IMG/VR virus record: IMGVR_UViG_3300025362_000035
Coordinates: 1 to 25,400 of that record
Reading direction: 5' to 3' (one strand)
DNA from: a virus
Length of the DNA: 25,400 nt
The notes under the pieces: model-generated
What the model was told of the DNA's origin: nothing
Databases searched by the model: none
The model's input: the letters and a program-made list of their open reading frames with translations, nothing else
Shown here: positions 2,954-23,500 of the stretch, in pieces
Numbering within the stretch: the first letter of the stretch is position 1
Layout: each line of letters begins with the position of its first letter
Translations under genes and position numbers: made by a program

Positions 2954-3282
2954 GCCAGAACCTCATGCATGGCTGGGCGTGTCAAATTAAAAACATTCTT
3001 TCCTGTCATCATTTCGTCCAAGGATAGCTCTGTATATCCGTCTGCCACAAGACCCTGATAAAGATCTAATGTACGAATTATTATGTCTGCCAGTTCGGTT
3101 ACTACTTCGCGGTCACCCTTTTCTTTTCTGATTGCTTCCAAGGCTTCGGAACACTCAGAGTGAATCATTGCAATCTGCTTGAGATAAAAGATTGTGTGAT
3201 TTTCTTCTGTGTTTGGTTCCCAAAACCCCTTAGCTACCGCGTTGTGATGAATCATCTTAGACATACTATCTAATGTTGTCAT
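2950..3282 (-). CDS. MazG-like nucleotide pyrophosphohydrolase
   Basis: 110 residues, all-alpha, with the MazG signature Glu43-x2-Glu46 (SECSE) and, 16 residues on, Glu63-x2-Asp66 (ELAD). These four acids coordinate the magnesium ions used to cleave NTPs or dNTPs to the monophosphate and pyrophosphate. The size matches single-domain phage MazG proteins. Starts at the ATG overlapping the dnaE stop as ATGA and ends overlapping the recA start as GTGA, so the three genes are translationally linked. Family knowledge suggests house-cleaning of dNTPs or lowering of host (p)ppGpp; which applies here cannot be told. Placement directly behind the polymerase favours nucleotide-pool control (inference). 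Confidence 0.85.
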   Translation of the reverse strand: MTTLDSMSKMIHHNAVAKGFWEPNTEENHTIFYLKQIAMIHSECSEALEAIRKEKGDREVVTELADIIIRTLDLYQGLVADGYTELSLDEMMTGKNVFNLTRPAMHEVLA

Positions 3283-6200
3283 GCTATAACTACCTCCTGA
3301 AATACTAGATCTTCATCTTTACTTATACTGTACTCAATCTTATAGGCAGAACCTTCTTGTATCCCCATGTAGGCTTTTGCAAAGCTGCTAGGAAAGACAA
3401 TCAAGGACAGTAGCCCTCTGTCTGAGTTGGCTACAACAATCGATCCCATCCTTTTGTTTGATTTTGTCATTCTCTTTTTAAAAGCCATAACAAAGTACTC
3501 CTCCTGTCCATACGGCAACTGTTTGTAGTTTAGGAACCGTACCAACGCTGATTTACTTTCTCGTATCTCCTCCACAGGTATCGCCTCAACGATCCTGTTA
3601 GACCCAACAAGAATAATATAAGTGCGGCCTGCTTCGATTGTTGTTTCCTCTTCATCAAATACTCCCATCGATCCTGTAGAGTCAAGGATGTCAACCCTGC
3701 TCCACCCCTTACCTCTTTTAATGCTTCTGACTACCCCCATCAATATGTATGCGCCCTTTTCTTCAAACTCATCCACAGAGCTTATGTAGGCGTGAAAGTG
3801 CTGGGGGACTTGAATATTAAACTCTGGAAGATTAAGATACTCATACATACTCTCCTTAATCTTTTCATCGTCCCTTGGGTTATCTGGAAACGTCAGGGCT
3901 CCCACAACATTCATTGAAGCTAGTGCCCGACTGTTGACACCATTACCCTTGGTAAAAGTAAACTCTTCTACATCTTTGTATGATGTAAATGGCCCACCCT
4001 CAATATAACGAGATGCTATCTTATCTGATATAAACTTAATACTTGATAGGCCAAACCTAATCCCCTTGCCCTCAATCTTAAAATCCATTCCAGAGTCGTT
4101 AACGTGTGGAAGTCTCATGGGAATCCCCATGCGCTTTGCCTCAATTAGATATTCTGTTCGGGCCTCTTTATCTTTTTCATTTTTAAGAAGGGCAAACATA
4201 AACTCTAGTGGGAAATAATACTTTAACCACGCCGTCCAGTACGATACGGTTGAGTAAGCAACAGCATGAGACTTATTAAACGAGTATCCTGCGTGTGCTT
4301 CAAAGTCATTCCACATCTTTTCAGCACCTGGCCCACCCAACGCCCCAGTAGCATTCCGAACAAATAGCTCCTTGAACTCATCAAAATCCTTAGCCTCTCC
4401 CTTTTTTCCAATAATTTTTCGAACCTTGTTTGCTTCCCCCATACTCATACCGCCAAGGTTGGTGCAAGCAAGCATAACTTGCTCCTGATAAAGAATTGTA
4501 CCGTAAGTATCCTCAGTAAAATCTTTCATCAATGGACTTGCATATGTTATTCCCTGTTTTCCATGTTTACGAGCAATGTAGTCCTTGCCGATTGTATTCA
4601 TGGCTCCTGGCCTTACAAGAGCGTTAGAGGCAACGAGTTCGTTAAACTTACTTACCCCCATCTTAACAAGAAGGTTAGTGTATGGCGTTGCCTCGCACTG
4701 AAACACCCCCTTCGTGTGTCCGTCAGAAAGCATGTCGTAGATGTTCTTATCTTCCATGTCCACCTTATGGAGGTCTAGCTTCTTACCTGTTCGATCCTTG
4801 ACGATGTTCAGCGTGTCATGGATAACGGTCAGGGTTTTAAGTCCAAGGACATCGATCTTAATCAGACCGATGTCTGCTGCCTCTTCCATGTCGACTGCCA
4901 CAACCGGAATCCTTTTATCGCTACCAGCAACGCTGCGAGTTTCCATTGGAGCGACGCGACTAATCGGAATCTTTGAGGTTACAACCCCTGCTGCGTGAAC
5001 TCCCGTACCTCGAATTCTTCCACGGAGTTGTCCAGCGTACACCTCTACCTCTGGATATTTATCACGGAACCACAAGGTGTTCTTTGAGAATACAAATTCC
5101 TCCCAAGTATCAACTGTCTTGAGGGCTCTGTTAACATCAGCCAATGGTACGTTAAAGCAACGAGCAACGTCTCTAACAACCCCTTTATCCTTAAACTGTA
5201 GAAAGGTTGCAATCGATGCAACGTGCTTGTATTGGTCCTCAAGGTAGATCTTAACCTCTTCACGACGAGTGTCCATGATGTCGCTGTCAATGTCGGGTAG
5301 ATCTGAACGGGCATCATCGATAAATCTAAAAAATAGCAATCCATGCTTTATTGGATCAATCTCTGTGATTCCTAGTGCGAAGCACAGCAGAGACCCTGCC
5401 GATGAACCACGGCCTGGTCCCACCATGATGTCATTCTTCTTTGCCCAATTGAGCATATTTTGAACAACGAGAAAGTATGATGCAAACTTCTTATCTCGAA
5501 CAACATCCAGCTCTTCCTTGAGACGATCAACATATTCTTGATTCGTATCCAAACCCCTTTCCTTTAGGAAGGCTTCTGCGTATTTTTTGATCTGTGCATC
5601 AGGGTTCTTGTGCTCAACAGGAAGAAGATTGAGATTGCGATGGATGGTATATTCCTCAACCTTGTCTGCAACCTCAAAAGTATTCTTGAAGTATTCCTCA
5701 ACGTCGATGCCCTGCTTGCTCATTGCCTCACGCATTTCATCACCAGAAAGCAGATGAATGTCAAACTTGTTAAACGACATCTGGCGATCTTTTCCATATA
5801 AGTAGTCAAGTCTATCCATCATGTCGGAGTGCTTTAGCGATTCTTTGTGCGATACCCCTTTCTCAAACTTGGCGTGGGTGGCCGTGATGAGCATGATTTC
5901 TTGAATTACCTTTTGATCTACCGTTGCGTGGTGGCAATCTGGTGTCACTATAACCTTGTTTCCAAATGCTTCTGCAAGGTCAATGAGTGCTTTGTTTATT
6001 TCAGGCTTGTTGTGATTCATAATCTCTATGTAAAAGTCTTCTCCAAATCTATCTTGGAACCACTGAAGATGTCTTTTTGCAACAGCATAATTGTCTTCCT
6101 CAATCGCCTTCGCAATCAAGCCCTGGATACAGGAAGAGCTTACAATCAAGCCCTCCTTGTATTTTTCCAAAATCTCAAAGTCAATTCGTGGCTTACGGTA

Positions 6201-6554
6201 AAATCCTTCATTCCAGGCAATCTCATTCATACGATTTAAATTTTCAAGACCCTTATCATTTTTAGCAAGAATTATTATGTGATTGTATACAAGGTCGAGG
6301 GGATCAGTTCTTTCTTTTTTATCTCGTTGATCGAAGCGGTCTTGGGTTATATATCCCTCAATTCCAAGGATTGGCTTGATCCCACGAGCAGTCATTGTTC
6401 GGTGAAAATCTCTATGCCCCGACAGCGTTCCATGGTTTGTTTGGGCAATCGCAGACAATCCAAGATCTACACATCTGTCTGCATAGTCCTCTGGTCTTGC
6501 AGTCCCATCCATTAATGAGAAATGATCATGTACGTGTAGCGGAATAAAGTTCAC
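3279..6554 (-). CDS. dnaE: DNA polymerase III alpha subunit (C-family, DnaE-type)
   Basis: 1091 residues, slightly shorter than bacterial DnaE (about 1160). The N-terminal PHP domain keeps all nine metal-ligand positions known from active PHP exonucleases: His7, His9, Asp16, His41, Glu66, His92, Cys142, Asp206 and His208. GPGRGSSAGS and LPDIDSDI (about residues 421-428) give the first two catalytic aspartates, and KIDVLGLKTL (about 564) the third. Helix-hairpin-helix and OB-fold regions follow; the C-terminal tau-binding part seems reduced. Start is GTG at 6554, with GGA about 8 bases upstream, overlapping the end of the HNH gene by 29 bases. It is the phage's own replicative polymerase, working with the nearby helicase, primase and SSB. 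No clamp or clamp loader lies in this window, so host factors may be used (inference). Confidence 0.97.
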   Translation of the reverse strand: MNFIPLHVHDHFSLMDGTARPEDYADRCVDLGLSAIAQTNHGTLSGHRDFHRTMTARGIKPILGIEGYITQDRFDQRDKKERTDPLDLVYNHIIILAKNDKGLENLNRMNEIAWNEGFYRKPRIDFEILEKYKEGLIVSSSCIQGLIAKAIEEDNYAVAKRHLQWFQDRFGEDFYIEIMNHNKPEINKALIDLAEAFGNKVIVTPDCHHATVDQKVIQEIMLITATHAKFEKGVSHKESLKHSDMMDRLDYLYGKDRQMSFNKFDIHLLSGDEMREAMSKQGIDVEEYFKNTFEVADKVEEYTIHRNLNLLPVEHKNPDAQIKKYAEAFLKERGLDTNQEYVDRLKEELDVVRDKKFASYFLVVQNMLNWAKKNDIMVGPGRGSSAGSLLCFALGITEIDPIKHGLLFFRFIDDARSDLPDIDSDIMDTRREEVKIYLEDQYKHVASIATFLQFKDKGVVRDVARCFNVPLADVNRALKTVDTWEEFVFSKNTLWFRDKYPEVEVYAGQLRGRIRGTGVHAAGVVTSKIPISRVAPMETRSVAGSDKRIPVVAVDMEEAADIGLIKIDVLGLKTLTVIHDTLNIVKDRTGKKLDLHKVDMEDKNIYDMLSDGHTKGVFQCEATPYTNLLVKMGVSKFNELVASNALVRPGAMNTIGKDYIARKHGKQGITYASPLMKDFTEDTYGTILYQEQVMLACTNLGGMSMGEANKVRKIIGKKGEAKDFDEFKELFVRNATGALGGPGAEKMWNDFEAHAGYSFNKSHAVAYSTVSYWTAWLKYYFPLEFMFALLKNEKDKEARTEYLIEAKRMGIPMRLPHVNDSGMDFKIEGKGIRFGLSSIKFISDKIASRYIEGGPFTSYKDVEEFTFTKGNGVNSRALASMNVVGALTFPDNPRDDEKIKESMYEYLNLPEFNIQVPQHFHAYISSVDEFEEKGAYILMGVVRSIKRGKGWSRVDILDSTGSMGVFDEEETTIEAGRTYIILVGSNRIVEAIPVEEIRESKSALVRFLNYKQLPYGQEEYFVMAFKKRMTKSNKRMGSIVVANSDRGLLSLIVFPSSFAKAYMGIQEGSAYKIEYSISKDEDLVFQEVVIA

Positions 6555-7128
6555 TATATTTCCATTCTGATAGGGTTCTTGCGCCTTTGCTTGAATTACA
6601 GCTCTTACATAGTGTTAGGAGGTTTCCTATTCCGTGAACACCTCCGCGAGAAAGTGGAATTCGGTGATCCATTGATTGATTTTCGTTTGATCCGCAGGCG
6701 AAGCAACTGTCTCTGTATATCTTTGCAATCTCTTTTTTAGTTATGAAAAATGTTTCTGCTGACATCTCTCTTGCCTTACGCCTTTGGTTTGCCTCAAAAG
6801 ACTTTTGTTTATTGTCGTGATAATACTTTTTCTGGGCTTCATTTATTTTGTTCTTATTTTCTTCAACAGCCCTGTACTCTAATCTATACTTTTGCTTTTT
6901 ATCTTTGTTTATTTGACGATATTTTTTTTGCTTTTGCTTTTGCTCTACCCTATTTGCAATGTGGTAATTGTGGCTGTATTTATTTCTACTCTCTTTGTTT
7001 TTTGCGTAGTAATTTCTAGACCTTTCCGCATTGCAGGACTTGCATTCGGCTCCCCGCCCCGACTTTGAGTTACATTTTTTAAAGTCATCAACGTCTTTCT
7101 CTATTCCGCATATCTTGCACACCTTCAT
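6526..7128 (-). CDS. HNH homing-type endonuclease with N-terminal zinc finger
   Basis: 200 residues in three parts. Residues 1-35 carry Cys4-x2-Cys7 and Cys29-x2-Cys32. The middle (about 36-125) is a very Lys/Asn/Tyr/Gln-rich helix with loosely repeated NK..Y units. The C-terminus (about 143-190) is an HNH nuclease: CxxC, MDHRIPLSRGG with the catalytic Asp-His, GNLLTLCKSCN, SKG. Family knowledge: such free-standing phage HNH proteins are often mobile homing endonucleases or packaging nickases. The middle is much more A+T-rich in codon choice than the neighbouring genes. It has its own promoter ending 6 bases before the ATG and no Shine-Dalgarno, and it separates the SSB gene from dnaE, overlapping dnaE by 29 bases. 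This fits an inserted selfish gene (inference). Confidence 0.9.
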   Translation of the reverse strand: MKVCKICGIEKDVDDFKKCNSKSGRGAECKSCNAERSRNYYAKNKESRNKYSHNYHIANRVEQKQKQKKYRQINKDKKQKYRLEYRAVEENKNKINEAQKKYYHDNKQKSFEANQRRKAREMSAETFFITKKEIAKIYRDSCFACGSNENQSMDHRIPLSRGGVHGIGNLLTLCKSCNSSKGARTLSEWKYSELYSATRT

Positions 7129-7134
7129 TTACCC

Positions 7135-7164
7135 AGTGTACATCATTTCTATATTTTTTGTCAA
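7135..7164 (-). promoter_or_regulatory. Promoter of the HNH gene, leaderless
   Basis: The minus strand has a perfect -35 TTGACA (7164-7159), an 18-base spacer, and -10 TACACT (7140-7135), then six bases to the ATG at 7128. The expected start site is at or next to the ATG, so the transcript would have no leader, in agreement with the absence of a ribosome binding site. Confidence 0.6.
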
Positions 7165-7173
7165 ATGGATTAA

Positions 7174-7279
7174 GGTAGGAGGGCAACTTCTATACTGGAT
7201 TTCAACCTCGCTTTGCCGATTAACTATAACCACCCTAGGGGTTGCGAGAATTCAGCACGATGGAGTATACCCTCCTACC
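7174..7279 (-). repeat. 106-base nested inverted repeat between SSB and HNH genes, possible structured RNA
   Basis: Perfect 10-base arms GGTAGGAGGG and CCCTCCTACC occupy the two ends (7174-7183 and 7270-7279). Directly inside, TATACT (7191-7196) and AGTATA (7264-7269) pair, with a one-sided bulge of seven bases. Further in, CTCGC (7207-7211) pairs with GCGAG (7244-7248), and AACC (7228-7231) with GGTT (7240-7243). This stacked order gives one long branched hairpin on either strand. It begins 7 bases after the SSB stop and ends before the HNH promoter. It is not a tRNA: no T-arm precedes the 3' arm. Candidates are an RNA element or processing site, or a small mobile element with terminal repeats; no clear target duplication is visible. 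Confidence 0.6.
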
Positions 7280-7286
7280 AGCCTAA

Positions 7287-7946
7287 TTACCAATCAATGT
7301 TGGTGGTATTACCTGTTGTTGGAGCATCAAATCCTAGATAAAAGGACTCCTGCTCTGCGTATACTACTTCACGAACAACCTTTTCTAGATCAAAAGGCTC
7401 CACGCCCGTCCAGTCATGCTTCTCTGTATCGGGATCTCCTGGAAGTAGGATATAGGTTGTATCCGTTCCACTACCCTGGCGTTTCATGCGCCATACACGG
7501 TTAGAGATAGATCCAGTTTCAATAGCGTACTCTTTAAGAGTGTTAAATGCAGACTGCTTTCCCACTCCTTGTGACCATACAGCCACATAGGGGTCTTCAA
7601 GCCCATCGTCTACCAATAGATTGGTATAGAATCGGAACCGCGCTCTCCAACCACTCTTTGGCTCCTTACGAGCCATTTCACATCCGAAGCACCGTCCTTC
7701 GCTTTCTACGGTACAAACAGCCTTACGTTTGTAATCCTTTGGATTGGTATGCTCAGATACAACAATTGCAAGATTACGTTCTGCGTCAAAGTTTGGTGAA
7801 TCTTCATCCAGTTCATTAACAAAACGAACTTTGGCACTTTGACCATCGTCTAGCTTAAGCCAGCGATTTCTGGCACCGCCTTCACCAGACACTGATGGAC
7901 GCTCTAAAGCCTTTTCCATCTCCTTCAATCCCCTCAATACTGTCAT
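7287..7946 (-). CDS. Single-stranded DNA-binding protein, T4 gp32-like zinc pattern
   Basis: 219 residues. His66, Cys78, Cys86 and Cys89 give H-x11-C-x7-C-x2-C, very close in place and spacing to the zinc ligands of T4 gp32 (His64, Cys77, Cys87, Cys90). The region around them is rich in basic and aromatic residues (KDYKRK, WRARFRFYTN) suited to ssDNA contact. The protein ends with an acidic-aromatic IDW tip, a weak parallel to the protein-recruiting tails of SSBs. GGAG sits about 8 bases before the ATG at 7946. It follows helicase and primase and originally probably preceded dnaE. It would coat ssDNA at the fork. Assignment rests on motif spacing and context rather than overall similarity. 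Confidence 0.75.
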   Translation of the reverse strand: MTVLRGLKEMEKALERPSVSGEGGARNRWLKLDDGQSAKVRFVNELDEDSPNFDAERNLAIVVSEHTNPKDYKRKAVCTVESEGRCFGCEMARKEPKSGWRARFRFYTNLLVDDGLEDPYVAVWSQGVGKQSAFNTLKEYAIETGSISNRVWRMKRQGSGTDTTYILLPGDPDTEKHDWTGVEPFDLEKVVREVVYAEQESFYLGFDAPTTGNTTNIDW

Positions 7947-19934: not shown

Positions 19935-20566
19935 TAAACTTCTTCCAGAGACAGGCTAATATTCCAAAAGTCAAATCCAGTACTTGTTCCCCCGCTTGAC
20001 CATGCGTTGCCTCTTTTTTCAATGGTGTAGTCAAATGAAGAGATGTACATCTTTAGTACCTGATTGTACGAACCAAGCCTATCAAAATTTTCCACTCCAT
20101 CAATTCTAAATTTGTCATATGCAAGGAAAACCCAAAATGGTCCAGTGTGATCTTCATACCAAGAGAGGATATCCATTCCTCCTGCACCGCCGTCAACGGT
20201 ATACATAGAATAGGTTCCTTCACTGTTAGAAATTAAACCAGTGGTTGTATTAAAAGTAACATCTTCAGAAAATGCTCTAGAGGGTATCTTTGACCAGGAT
20301 GTGGATAGGGTTAGCTTGTCTGCCGTCCAATATGACCTCATGTTTCCATTGACCATTCTTTGTTTTGATTCAATTCTTTGCTTAGCCATTGATATTTCTC
20401 CCCGATTTCCATCAGTAAGTATGATAAAGTCCGTTCCCTCAACCCCATTTGGAATGTACTGCCCACTTTGAAGTGTTCCGGCATTATCTGAAAGAAGTAT
20501 CGCCTGTGGTCTGCCAGCACCTCTCAGGTACCCCTTCCTTCCAGACATATATGCACTAGTTGCCAC
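19934..20566 (-). CDS. Minor tail protein in the distal-tail (Dit) position
   Basis: 210 residues. GTG start at 20566 with AAGGAG five bases upstream, overlapping the tape measure stop by 11 bases. The sequence is beta-rich with several aromatic strands (YWTADKLTLSTSWSKIP, GPFWVFLAYDKF, VLKMYISSFDYTIEKRG, FDFWNISLSLEEV). This order of strands, and the position directly after the tape measure and before the giant tip protein, match distal tail proteins, which form the ring joining tube and tip. The assignment is by context and shape; no diagnostic motif is present. An internal ATG (MSGRKG) is a less likely start. Confidence 0.75.
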   Translation of the reverse strand: MATSAYMSGRKGYLRGAGRPQAILLSDNAGTLQSGQYIPNGVEGTDFIILTDGNRGEISMAKQRIESKQRMVNGNMRSYWTADKLTLSTSWSKIPSRAFSEDVTFNTTTGLISNSEGTYSMYTVDGGAGGMDILSWYEDHTGPFWVFLAYDKFRIDGVENFDRLGSYNQVLKMYISSFDYTIEKRGNAWSSGGTSTGFDFWNISLSLEEV

Positions 20567-23500
20567 GACTACTCCTTACCTGCATGTTCTGCATCTGCTT
20601 AATTTTCATTACTGCCGCTGTTGCGATCTCGTCAGGGTTAGCATTTGTTGTTGCGCTGACATTGACACTATAGTTATTATACATGGGTGCAGAGATGTTT
20701 GCACTGTTGTTATTGACAGAGCCAATCTCTATGCCCTGTTGAGCACCGCCAGTGTCATACTTAGGCATCTTGAATGATCCTTGGTTTATTGCCCCAAGCA
20801 TTGGAATTCCATATTTGTTTACCATTGACTTACGAACAACAAACTCCCCTGGAGTTAATCTTGCTGGAACTGAATCCCTGCTTCCTTCACCATTAATCAT
20901 TCCTCCAGAACTCTTACCTAGCTCTCCCATTGACTTAATTCCCGAAGCTTTTGCATTGTCTATAGACGCTTGCCAAACTTCTTTTATTTTACCAATCTTG
21001 TTTTTCCATTTTTCAACCCTTGCTTTATAATCCTCTGTCGAATCCGTGGGGAGTCGGTTGGGCTTTAATCCAGCATTAGTTTTTTTGGTTTCCATTAGAG
21101 TATTTGCAGTAGCAATTTGCTTATTAACCTCATGCCATGATGTTGCAAGATCATCCACCTTTTTCCTCTGAGCATCAGTCATTTCTGCATTATCAATTTG
21201 AATCTCCAGGGCTTCCACATTTGCGTCAAGAATGTTTTCCATTTCTGTTCTTTGCGTTGTCAATCCATTTAAAATTTCCTGCTGTGGTTCAAGCCTTTTT
21301 CTAGTTATTTCTAGTATTTGGGTCTCTCTACCATAAATTATATCTTCAAGATCTCTGATTTCCATATTTATTCCAGCAATTTTGCTCTTTAGAGGAATAA
21401 TGTCAAGATTTCTTTGGTAAACTCTATCCTCAATGTCTCTAACTAGAAGGCCTGTTTGATAATTTTGCTCTGTGATGTCTTTCATTTGTTTTTCTGCTTC
21501 TAGCCTTGTGAGACCCCCAGAGGTTCTTAGGGAGTCAACCTGATTTTCCATTCCCTTTTGTAAAGCATTTCTTGTATTGTCCATGGCATACTGGGCATTA
21601 CCTGCACGAATCTCTTGTACGGATTGAGTAGCAGCATAAATATCTCCTTGACTTAGTGCTTGAGCTAATCCAAGCTGCCCCTTTTGCTGTTCAAGAATCC
21701 TCTTGTTTACTGACTCAACCTTCTCAAGTGATTCTAATCTCTTATCATATGCATCTTTAATTTCAGTTTCTGCATCACCCATAACTTGAAGATCGTGAGA
21801 AATTGCTGACGACACCCTACTTCTAATTTCAGAATTTCTTTTTAGCTTGTCTGAGCTTTCTTTATCTGCTTTATTGAGTTTTTCTTTAGCCTCAACTTGT
21901 CTATTGATCATTTCAATGTCACGTTGTTTTGATCTTATGCTATCGTTCTCTACATCGTTAAGTTTTTCTATTGCTCCTATTTCATCTTCAATGGAATCAA
22001 TAAGATCTTCTTGCTTTTCTATTTTGTCATCAAGTGGCTTGATCCCCTCTTCAAAGGACTTGTTGAGGTTATCGATTGCATCTCTATACTTGTCTGTTGG
22101 ATCTTTTGCTTCGTCTGTAGATGTTCTTAGTGCACCAAAAAATTCTTTCCATGTCTTTCCTGCTTTTTTGGGGAGGTTGGCGATGTCTGTCATAAGATCT
22201 TCATCTTGCAACATCTCTTTTATTTCTTTTTCTGAAAATCCTTCTTTGGTTAGTCTTTTTTCAGCCTTTGTCTTATTTGTAGCCCTAACAGCATCTCCAC
22301 CCAAATTAAAGGTTCTCTCCTGTATTCTTCCAATAGAATCCAACTTGCTTAGTCTTTTTGCCTGACTCTTCCTTTCATCTTTTGTTTTTCCAAGATTTTT
22401 AATAAGCTTACTTGCTTCCTTTGGACCCTTAGAGATTATATCTGCAATCATTTGCTCATTTATTCCCCAGTCCCTTAGCTTTTGTGCAAGACTTCCCTTT
22501 GTAGTCATCTGACCAAGGAATTTTCCAAATTTTTTCTTTGAATCTGCGAGCTTTTTCCCAAGTTTGGTTAGATTTCCATATATAGCTAATCTGTCTGTGA
22601 TGGTTTTCTTTAAGTCTTTTAGTGGTGTTGTTGCTTTGCTGCCGCCGGCGCCAGACTTATCTTTTGTGTCATCATCCAACTCCTTTCCCATTGGTACATC
22701 TGGGGACAATCCTAGGACAATATCGTATGCCTTTACTGCCGCAACATGTTCGGCAGTGATTACCTGACTACTACCGGCTGCGAAGCTTGTCCCCGGTGCA
22801 CCGACATAAGTTCCCCCCTCTCCCAACCCACCCCTAATTGCATCCTGTGCCCCTGGAGACAGTCCAGCCAAAGCGGTCAGCATTTCTGGATTCATCAAGG
22901 ATAGAATTATTGGCAGCGTGGCTGGCGGAAGATTTTTGGGGAATGCAGCTTTTAATGTTTTTGCCAACCCATCTGCATCTACACCCTTTCCAAATAGCTG
23001 TGTGACAATCTCTGTATTTATCTTTATGTTTCCAAATTCATCAAGATTTGTTTTTGACAACCCCTTTATTTTTTGTGTTGCGGTTGATACAGCGGAAACA
23101 ACTTTTCCTGGAATACTGTCTAACTCTTCCCCTGATTCCATTAAAGCATTTGTGATTGCTTGTGCGTCTAGTGCCGCAGAACCAAATATTTTCTTGTTTA
23201 ACTTTATATCCGATATTTCTTTTATAGACTTTTTAATTTTTCTTGATATTCGAAGTGCGCCTATCCCCTCTTCTTTCATTGCCTTGAAAGCGTTTTCTTT
23301 TTCTATTCCGTTAAGCCCTTCAAGTTCAACCAGTAAAATTGAAAATTCTTTTAGATCCTCAGTACTTCCAACTATATCTTTAAAAAGTTTTTTATCTCCA
23401 AGTTCGACAAGAGATGAAATCAATTCATTTGTTGTTACACCAAGTGCGTCCAGGTCTAATTCTTTGATGTTTTTGGCAGCATCTTCACCAACATTTGTTC

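Follow-up and report, generated by a model that had tools for sequence, protein, structure and literature searches.

Bacterial and phage antisense RNAs, as well as sRNAs derived from 3′UTRs, are structured, co-transcribed with an mRNA and complementary to their target over an extended stretch, and the element described here shares all these properties, its complementarity to a defined target being extended beyond what is expected by chance. However, the antisense sRNAs of bacteria and phages are directed against mRNA, whereas the target of the element is 23S rRNA. The 3′UTR-derived sRNAs often end in a terminator hairpin, and so do the capsid and nrdA families presented below, whereas the family found in the window (the whole analysed stretch of 25,400 nucleotides of viral DNA, IMG/VR record IMGVR_UViG_3300025362_000035) has no clear terminator. 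RNAs antisense to rRNA, like the element, are the snoRNA and sRNA guides (C/D, H/ACA) of archaea and eukaryotes; the element differs from them in lacking a C/D box or an H/ACA end, and no partner proteins are known in the hosts. In phage T7 the gene 10 "epsilon" is an rRNA-complementary translation enhancer, a short motif of the 5′ leader aimed at 16S rRNA. Both are elements of phage mRNA proposed to pair with rRNA, but the one in the window is a structured intercistronic or 3′UTR RNA aimed at 23S rRNA and not a short leader motif. Finally, intrinsic terminators and intergenic stability hairpins also place a GC-rich stem between genes, and plain hairpins do occur in the same slot of relatives, but the element has a long conserved inner domain and no U-tract. 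No published description of a phage antisense RNA to 23S rRNA was found in the open-access literature searched.

Location and Folding of the Element

The element lies in a gap of 158 nt between the SSB gene and an HNH endonuclease gene (Table 1). The original prediction called it the only sizeable non-coding gap, which is inexact, as positions 1765-1942 are also open. The neighbouring genes are all encoded on the minus strand, hence this is the transcribed (mRNA) strand of the element, as had been stated. The element is probably a non-coding RNA co-transcribed within the SSB-polymerase operon. A sigma-70-like sequence (TTGACA-18-TACACT; 7135-7164, minus strand) directly precedes the HNH gene; this gene and the start of the polymerase gene overlap by 29 bases.

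Table 1. Features of the element and its neighbourhood in the window (23S rRNA in E. coli numbering).
Feature	Position	Strand	Basis
Structured RNA element (whole), long imperfect hairpin	7174..7279	-	z = -4.48; covariance model 77.2 bits; homologues at the same position
P1 outer stem, 5′ arm GGTAGGAGGG	7270..7279	-	P1 helix 96.8% paired, double changes at 5 pairs
P1 outer stem, 3′ arm CCCTCCTACC	7174..7183	-	Same as 5′ arm (P1 pairing, double changes)
Antisense core TAGGGTGGTTATAGTTA	7221..7237	-	17 uninterrupted WC+GU pairs with 23S 1911-1927 (H69)
Second antisense segment GAATTC-TCGC	7244..7253	-	Complementary to 23S ~1934-1941 (H70 strand); alignment and duplex
Third antisense segment TACTCCA-TCGTGC	7255..7267	-	Complementary to 23S ~1964-1977 (H72 side); alignment and duplex
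SSB, single-stranded DNA-binding protein, upstream neighbour of the element	7287..7946	-	PHROG 9721, E 4.6e-41
HNH endonuclease gene, inserted between element and polymerase	6526..7128	-	PF01844
DnaE-like DNA polymerase III alpha (PolIII-type)	3279..6554	-	PF07733, PF17657, PF02811

The predicted inverted repeat is real: the 10-base arms are perfect, and the minus strand folds with -41.5 kcal/mol, a value that none of 200 shuffles equalled, while the plus strand gives -37.4 kcal/mol (z = -3.65). The nested inner pairs proposed by eye proved only roughly right in detail; the best minus-strand fold is a single long imperfect hairpin, which does hold several nested helices.

It had also been proposed that no named RNA class fits, and this agrees with Rfam, where the window matched no family at or above its gathering score (a permissive search gave mir-942, E 3.9, at best) and the relatives matched only tRNAs located elsewhere. 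ARAGORN found 0 tRNA or tmRNA genes in the window. A C/D or H/ACA guide was rejected because the minus strand of 7174-7279 has no RUGAUGA and no terminal ACA, and an intrinsic terminator because 0 terminator-like sites were found in 6950-7450; in two related records, L087 and L089, the stem is followed by TTTTTT, unlike in the window.

Conservation and Covariation in Related Phages

A homologous element is present at the same place in four viral contigs selected by their SSB genes (L002, L006, L007, and L008), and further contigs were added by a scan with the core of the element. In total, about 17 phage contigs besides the window share it at this position. Most of them lack the HNH gene, the element being followed directly by the polymerase gene in most relatives. 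Relatives L003, L004, L005, and L014 have a plain GC hairpin in this slot and others are almost gapless.

Covariation was analysed in an alignment of 12 distinct relatives. The outer stem P1 is 96.8% paired with five pairs doubly changed, and the whole structure contains 19 double-changed cells, compared with 7.7 on average after column shuffling and 4-9 in slid controls. The inner helices are less well supported, since they vary mostly on one side, with little double-sided covariation. The minus strand folds better in all relatives folded (9/9), the consensus fold reaching -12.4 kcal/mol vs. -4.9 kcal/mol for the opposite strand, and a covariance model scored the members at 57-115 bits and recovered no others within the SSB loci searched. 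The recurrence at the same place together with the compensatory changes of the outer stem, which were the proposed check on homologous loci, indicates that the element is not a product of chance. With the strand preference in folding and a working covariance model, the small structured RNA that had been suggested is borne out, and the element is almost certainly a structured RNA of the minus strand.

The same element, identical or near-identical, is found in L087 and L089, whose records have no HNH gene; it is therefore independent of this gene, and neither the suggested HNH recognition site nor a homing site finds support. The search for further copies, proposed as a check on a MITE-like insertion, showed that the window record and all 17 related records searched contain a single convincing copy each, so the element is not a dispersed repeat. 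An element acting at the level of DNA, whether as a target of the neighbouring HNH enzyme, as a target of an endonuclease directed at rDNA, or as a MITE-like insertion, could be argued from the adjacent HNH gene and from the 23S stretch matched by the antisense core, which overlaps the I-CeuI target. Yet the presence of the element without HNH, its one copy per record, the RNA covariation, and, in other families, the strand bias of 48:0 and the split and permuted order of the pieces (see below) leave this reading with hardly any probability.

The SSB intergenic slot is used in various ways. Some distant relatives (L538, L540, L545, and L551) carry genuine tRNA genes for Ala, Trp, and Lys there, and others plain hairpins. 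In L519, L522, L523, L531, and L533 the SSB gene is followed by a different structured element, GGGCGGTG[T/C]GT...TTC[A/G]CTTT...GCCC, with a compensatory change. In L519, L522, and L533 it has 11 exact bases antisense to 16S rRNA in the vicinity of the decoding site, a match that may be due to chance; the change in L523/L531 covaries within the element's own helix, so that a 16S antisense function is at most a lead.

Complementarity to 23S rRNA

A relation absent from the original prediction concerns the conserved core, which on the minus strand is antisense to H69-H72 of host 23S rRNA (E. coli ~1911-1977; Table 1), the functional region in which this rRNA is most conserved. H69 comprises positions 1906-1924 (PMC3973299). 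The complementarity skips the self-pairing H71 hairpin (~1945-1961). When bacterial genomes were scanned with the core, almost all hits were to actinobacterial 23S rRNA genes, the rRNA being encoded on the opposite strand.

Scored against the whole 23S rRNA, the window and its relatives reach 36-46 in antisense and 18-21 in sense orientation, while shuffles have a mean of ~22 (sd ~2.3, maximum 33). For the window itself the values are 36 and 19, and 200 shuffles scored on both strands of the whole 23S gave 21.6 ± 2.2 with a maximum of 32. Over the entire 23S rRNA, the most favourable duplex falls within 1907-1972 for 12/12 relatives, and the computed net binding, with both partners folded, amounts to -1.6 to -19 kcal/mol, and to zero for plus-strand RNA. 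Single-duplex energies of the window copy and L087 lie only at the edge of those of shuffled cores, and the 17 uninterrupted pairs of the window copy are fewer than the runs of some relatives. When 23S was compared with 81 sequences by plain blastn, the short single matches were unremarkable; gapped and duplex tests were needed to reveal the complementarity.

A sense mimic of 23S rRNA was rejected, given a sense score at background, no predicted binding of the plus-strand RNA and the 48:0 strand bias. Contamination of viral contigs with rRNA was likewise rejected, 0/120 scanned sites lying within an intact 23S stretch. A circularly permuted match of the 3′ arm (GGTTGA.A ... AGAAGT vs. 23S ~1980-2001) is suggestive by eye and not significant.

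Independent Cases in Unrelated Phages

The core of the window family corresponds to one form of H69. Among Actinomycetota, some genomes carry the CCATCC variant and others GGTCC or CGTCC, and a scan with the CCATCC form recovered almost only Actinomycetes. All window-type cores (12/12) prefer the Actinomycetes (CCATCC) H69, and all the other cores (17/17) the general bacterial form, counts that partly follow from the cores having been found with those same patterns. An argument independent of H69 comes from the SSB homologues, which in INPHARED are found in actinophages only, so that the phage of the window probably has an actinobacterial host.

A 19-mer antisense to the general form matched 32 viral contigs, compared with 0 for a scrambled control; contigs within one family are related, so this and the other counts given here are not independent events. 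The sites follow two unrelated major head genes (L240 and L224 types), nrdA and terminase. Where an intergenic site is preceded by an ORF at less than 150 nt, it is always (48/48) on the strand of that ORF, 2-91 nt past its end, whereas matches inside ORFs (4 on the same strand, 11 on the opposite) are distributed as expected by chance. TTCGCTA, the complement of an adjacent piece of 23S, is present near 26 of 55 sites vs. 0.68 expected, often in permuted order and within the loop of a terminator-like hairpin. The longest pairing noted, in L246 and L251, has 31 uninterrupted WC+GU pairs with 23S 1911-1941.

Isolated phages are also among the cases. The Vibrio isolates PWH3a-P1, R16F, P018-4, and qdvp001 (L349, L350, L558, L559), whose loci were read, have 25 uninterrupted WC+GU pairs with 23S 1907-1931, and Vibrio phage 10AMN was also matched. 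The stretch is intergenic and unannotated, and TCGCTACC follows after about 45 nt; in PWH3a-P1, a phage of Vibrio natriegens with its site at HQ634156.1 80887-80910, the two pieces are GCCTTGGGACCGTTATAGTTATGGC ... TCGCTACC. The R16F site is near tRNA genes and a NUMOD4/HNH gene.

In the capsid 3′UTRs the antisense stretch is present in 40 of the 44 closest loci, which were chosen by protein and not by motif. Of the six kinds of substitution, five retain pairing by means of G-U, so that full pairing is seen in 39 of the 40 sequences; more distant capsid relatives mostly lack the stretch. One capsid-gene match, L514 (G009 20492-21394), has 1 TGA and 2 TAG inside, attributable to sequencing error or recoding, and N bases also occur in the stretch.

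The nrdA family shows a middle hairpin with a freely covarying stem, in contrast to the nearly fixed CTTAGGACCG and loop TTCGCTAC; in relatives L474 and L476 the first piece is lost and the second decayed. The gene that follows the nrdA-type site, without a PHROG match, looks like a sliding clamp. In L227, L230, and L431-L506 the region from nrdA to this clamp-like gene forms a three-hairpin 3′UTR, composed of a fixed CTTAGGACCG, a covarying hairpin and a terminator with a fixed loop TTCGCTACT, which has the appearance of a separate RNA family.

One may ask if the complementarity is coincidental and the element a conserved structured RNA of some other function. The inner helices, with little double-sided covariation, and the single blastn matches of 23S, which do not stand out, would agree with this. 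But several unrelated families converge on the same stretch of 23S in a host-matched, wobble-preserving and strand-biased manner, which makes coincidence quite improbable, and the 23S complementarity has very probably been selected. RNAs of unrelated phages directed at the same spot suggest an undescribed way in which phages act on ribosomes. It appears fairly probable, as judged from sequence, that unrelated phages repeatedly evolved structured RNAs, borne on intercistronic or 3′ parts of their mRNAs, that pair with host H69-H70 and track its rRNA variants in an RNA-based action on ribosomes. If so, base-pairing has repeatedly given phages access to the central intersubunit bridge of the ribosome, in forms matched to the host; this would offer a testable handle on phage takeover of translation and a natural example of ribosome-targeting RNA, and the matched rRNA variant would hint at the host lineage. 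The isolated Vibrio phages, one of them growing on V. natriegens, a laboratory species, make the idea directly testable.

Possible Action on the Ribosome

The element is best explained as a phage antisense RNA that would base-pair at the subunit interface of free 50S or pre-50S particles, a reading predicted from sequence comparison and computed pairing to which we assign a probability of roughly 0.6. The outer stem would enclose a domain, with H69, the H70 strand and H72 at the subunit interface as the complement of its conserved core. During infection the RNA, either still within the mRNA or freed from it, may then base-pair with H69-H70, which are exposed on free or precursor 50S. Such pairing with 23S in vivo is somewhat favoured; the RNA's own fold competes with it, so that the computed net gain is no more than the -1.6 to -19 kcal/mol given above.

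H69 forms bridge B2a with h44 of 16S rRNA, and 50S subunits without H69 cannot join 30S (PMC9067457), hence an effect on subunit joining would be the simplest one. The RNA might hinder or delay formation of the bridge and 70S assembly, by which the phage would withhold, tether or mark large subunits. This is the least certain step, and interference with joining is doubtful as the main effect. A pure inhibitor is also hard to square with the location in capsid 3′UTRs, because the phage needs working ribosomes.

The element may instead act in cis, as a hairpin for processing, stability or attenuation between SSB and polymerase, where any pairing with free 50S would sense the supply of ribosomes or tether subunits to the mRNA to the benefit of the next gene. 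The sites 20-90 nt past stop codons and ahead of key genes, the plain GC hairpins in the same slot of relatives, and the antisense stretch forming part of a terminator-like 3′UTR in other families all speak for such a role. We consider it unlikely, however, as a plain stability hairpin does not need a host-matched complement of rRNA, and the true tRNA genes of relatives show that the slot accepts trans-acting RNAs.

The antisense RNA proposed above could also be protective, shielding the H69-H70 region of 23S in free 50S against cleavage by toxins of the host or other RNases, such as MazF-mt3 and MazF-mt6, which act at helix/loop 70. In actinobacteria, MazF toxins cleave at UUCCU in helix/loop 70 when the 50S is free, though not within 70S (PMC5408214), and the window-type complementarity extends up to this stretch. 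Protection is nevertheless improbable, since most elements of the other phages span 1910-1931 and thus fall short of the cut site.
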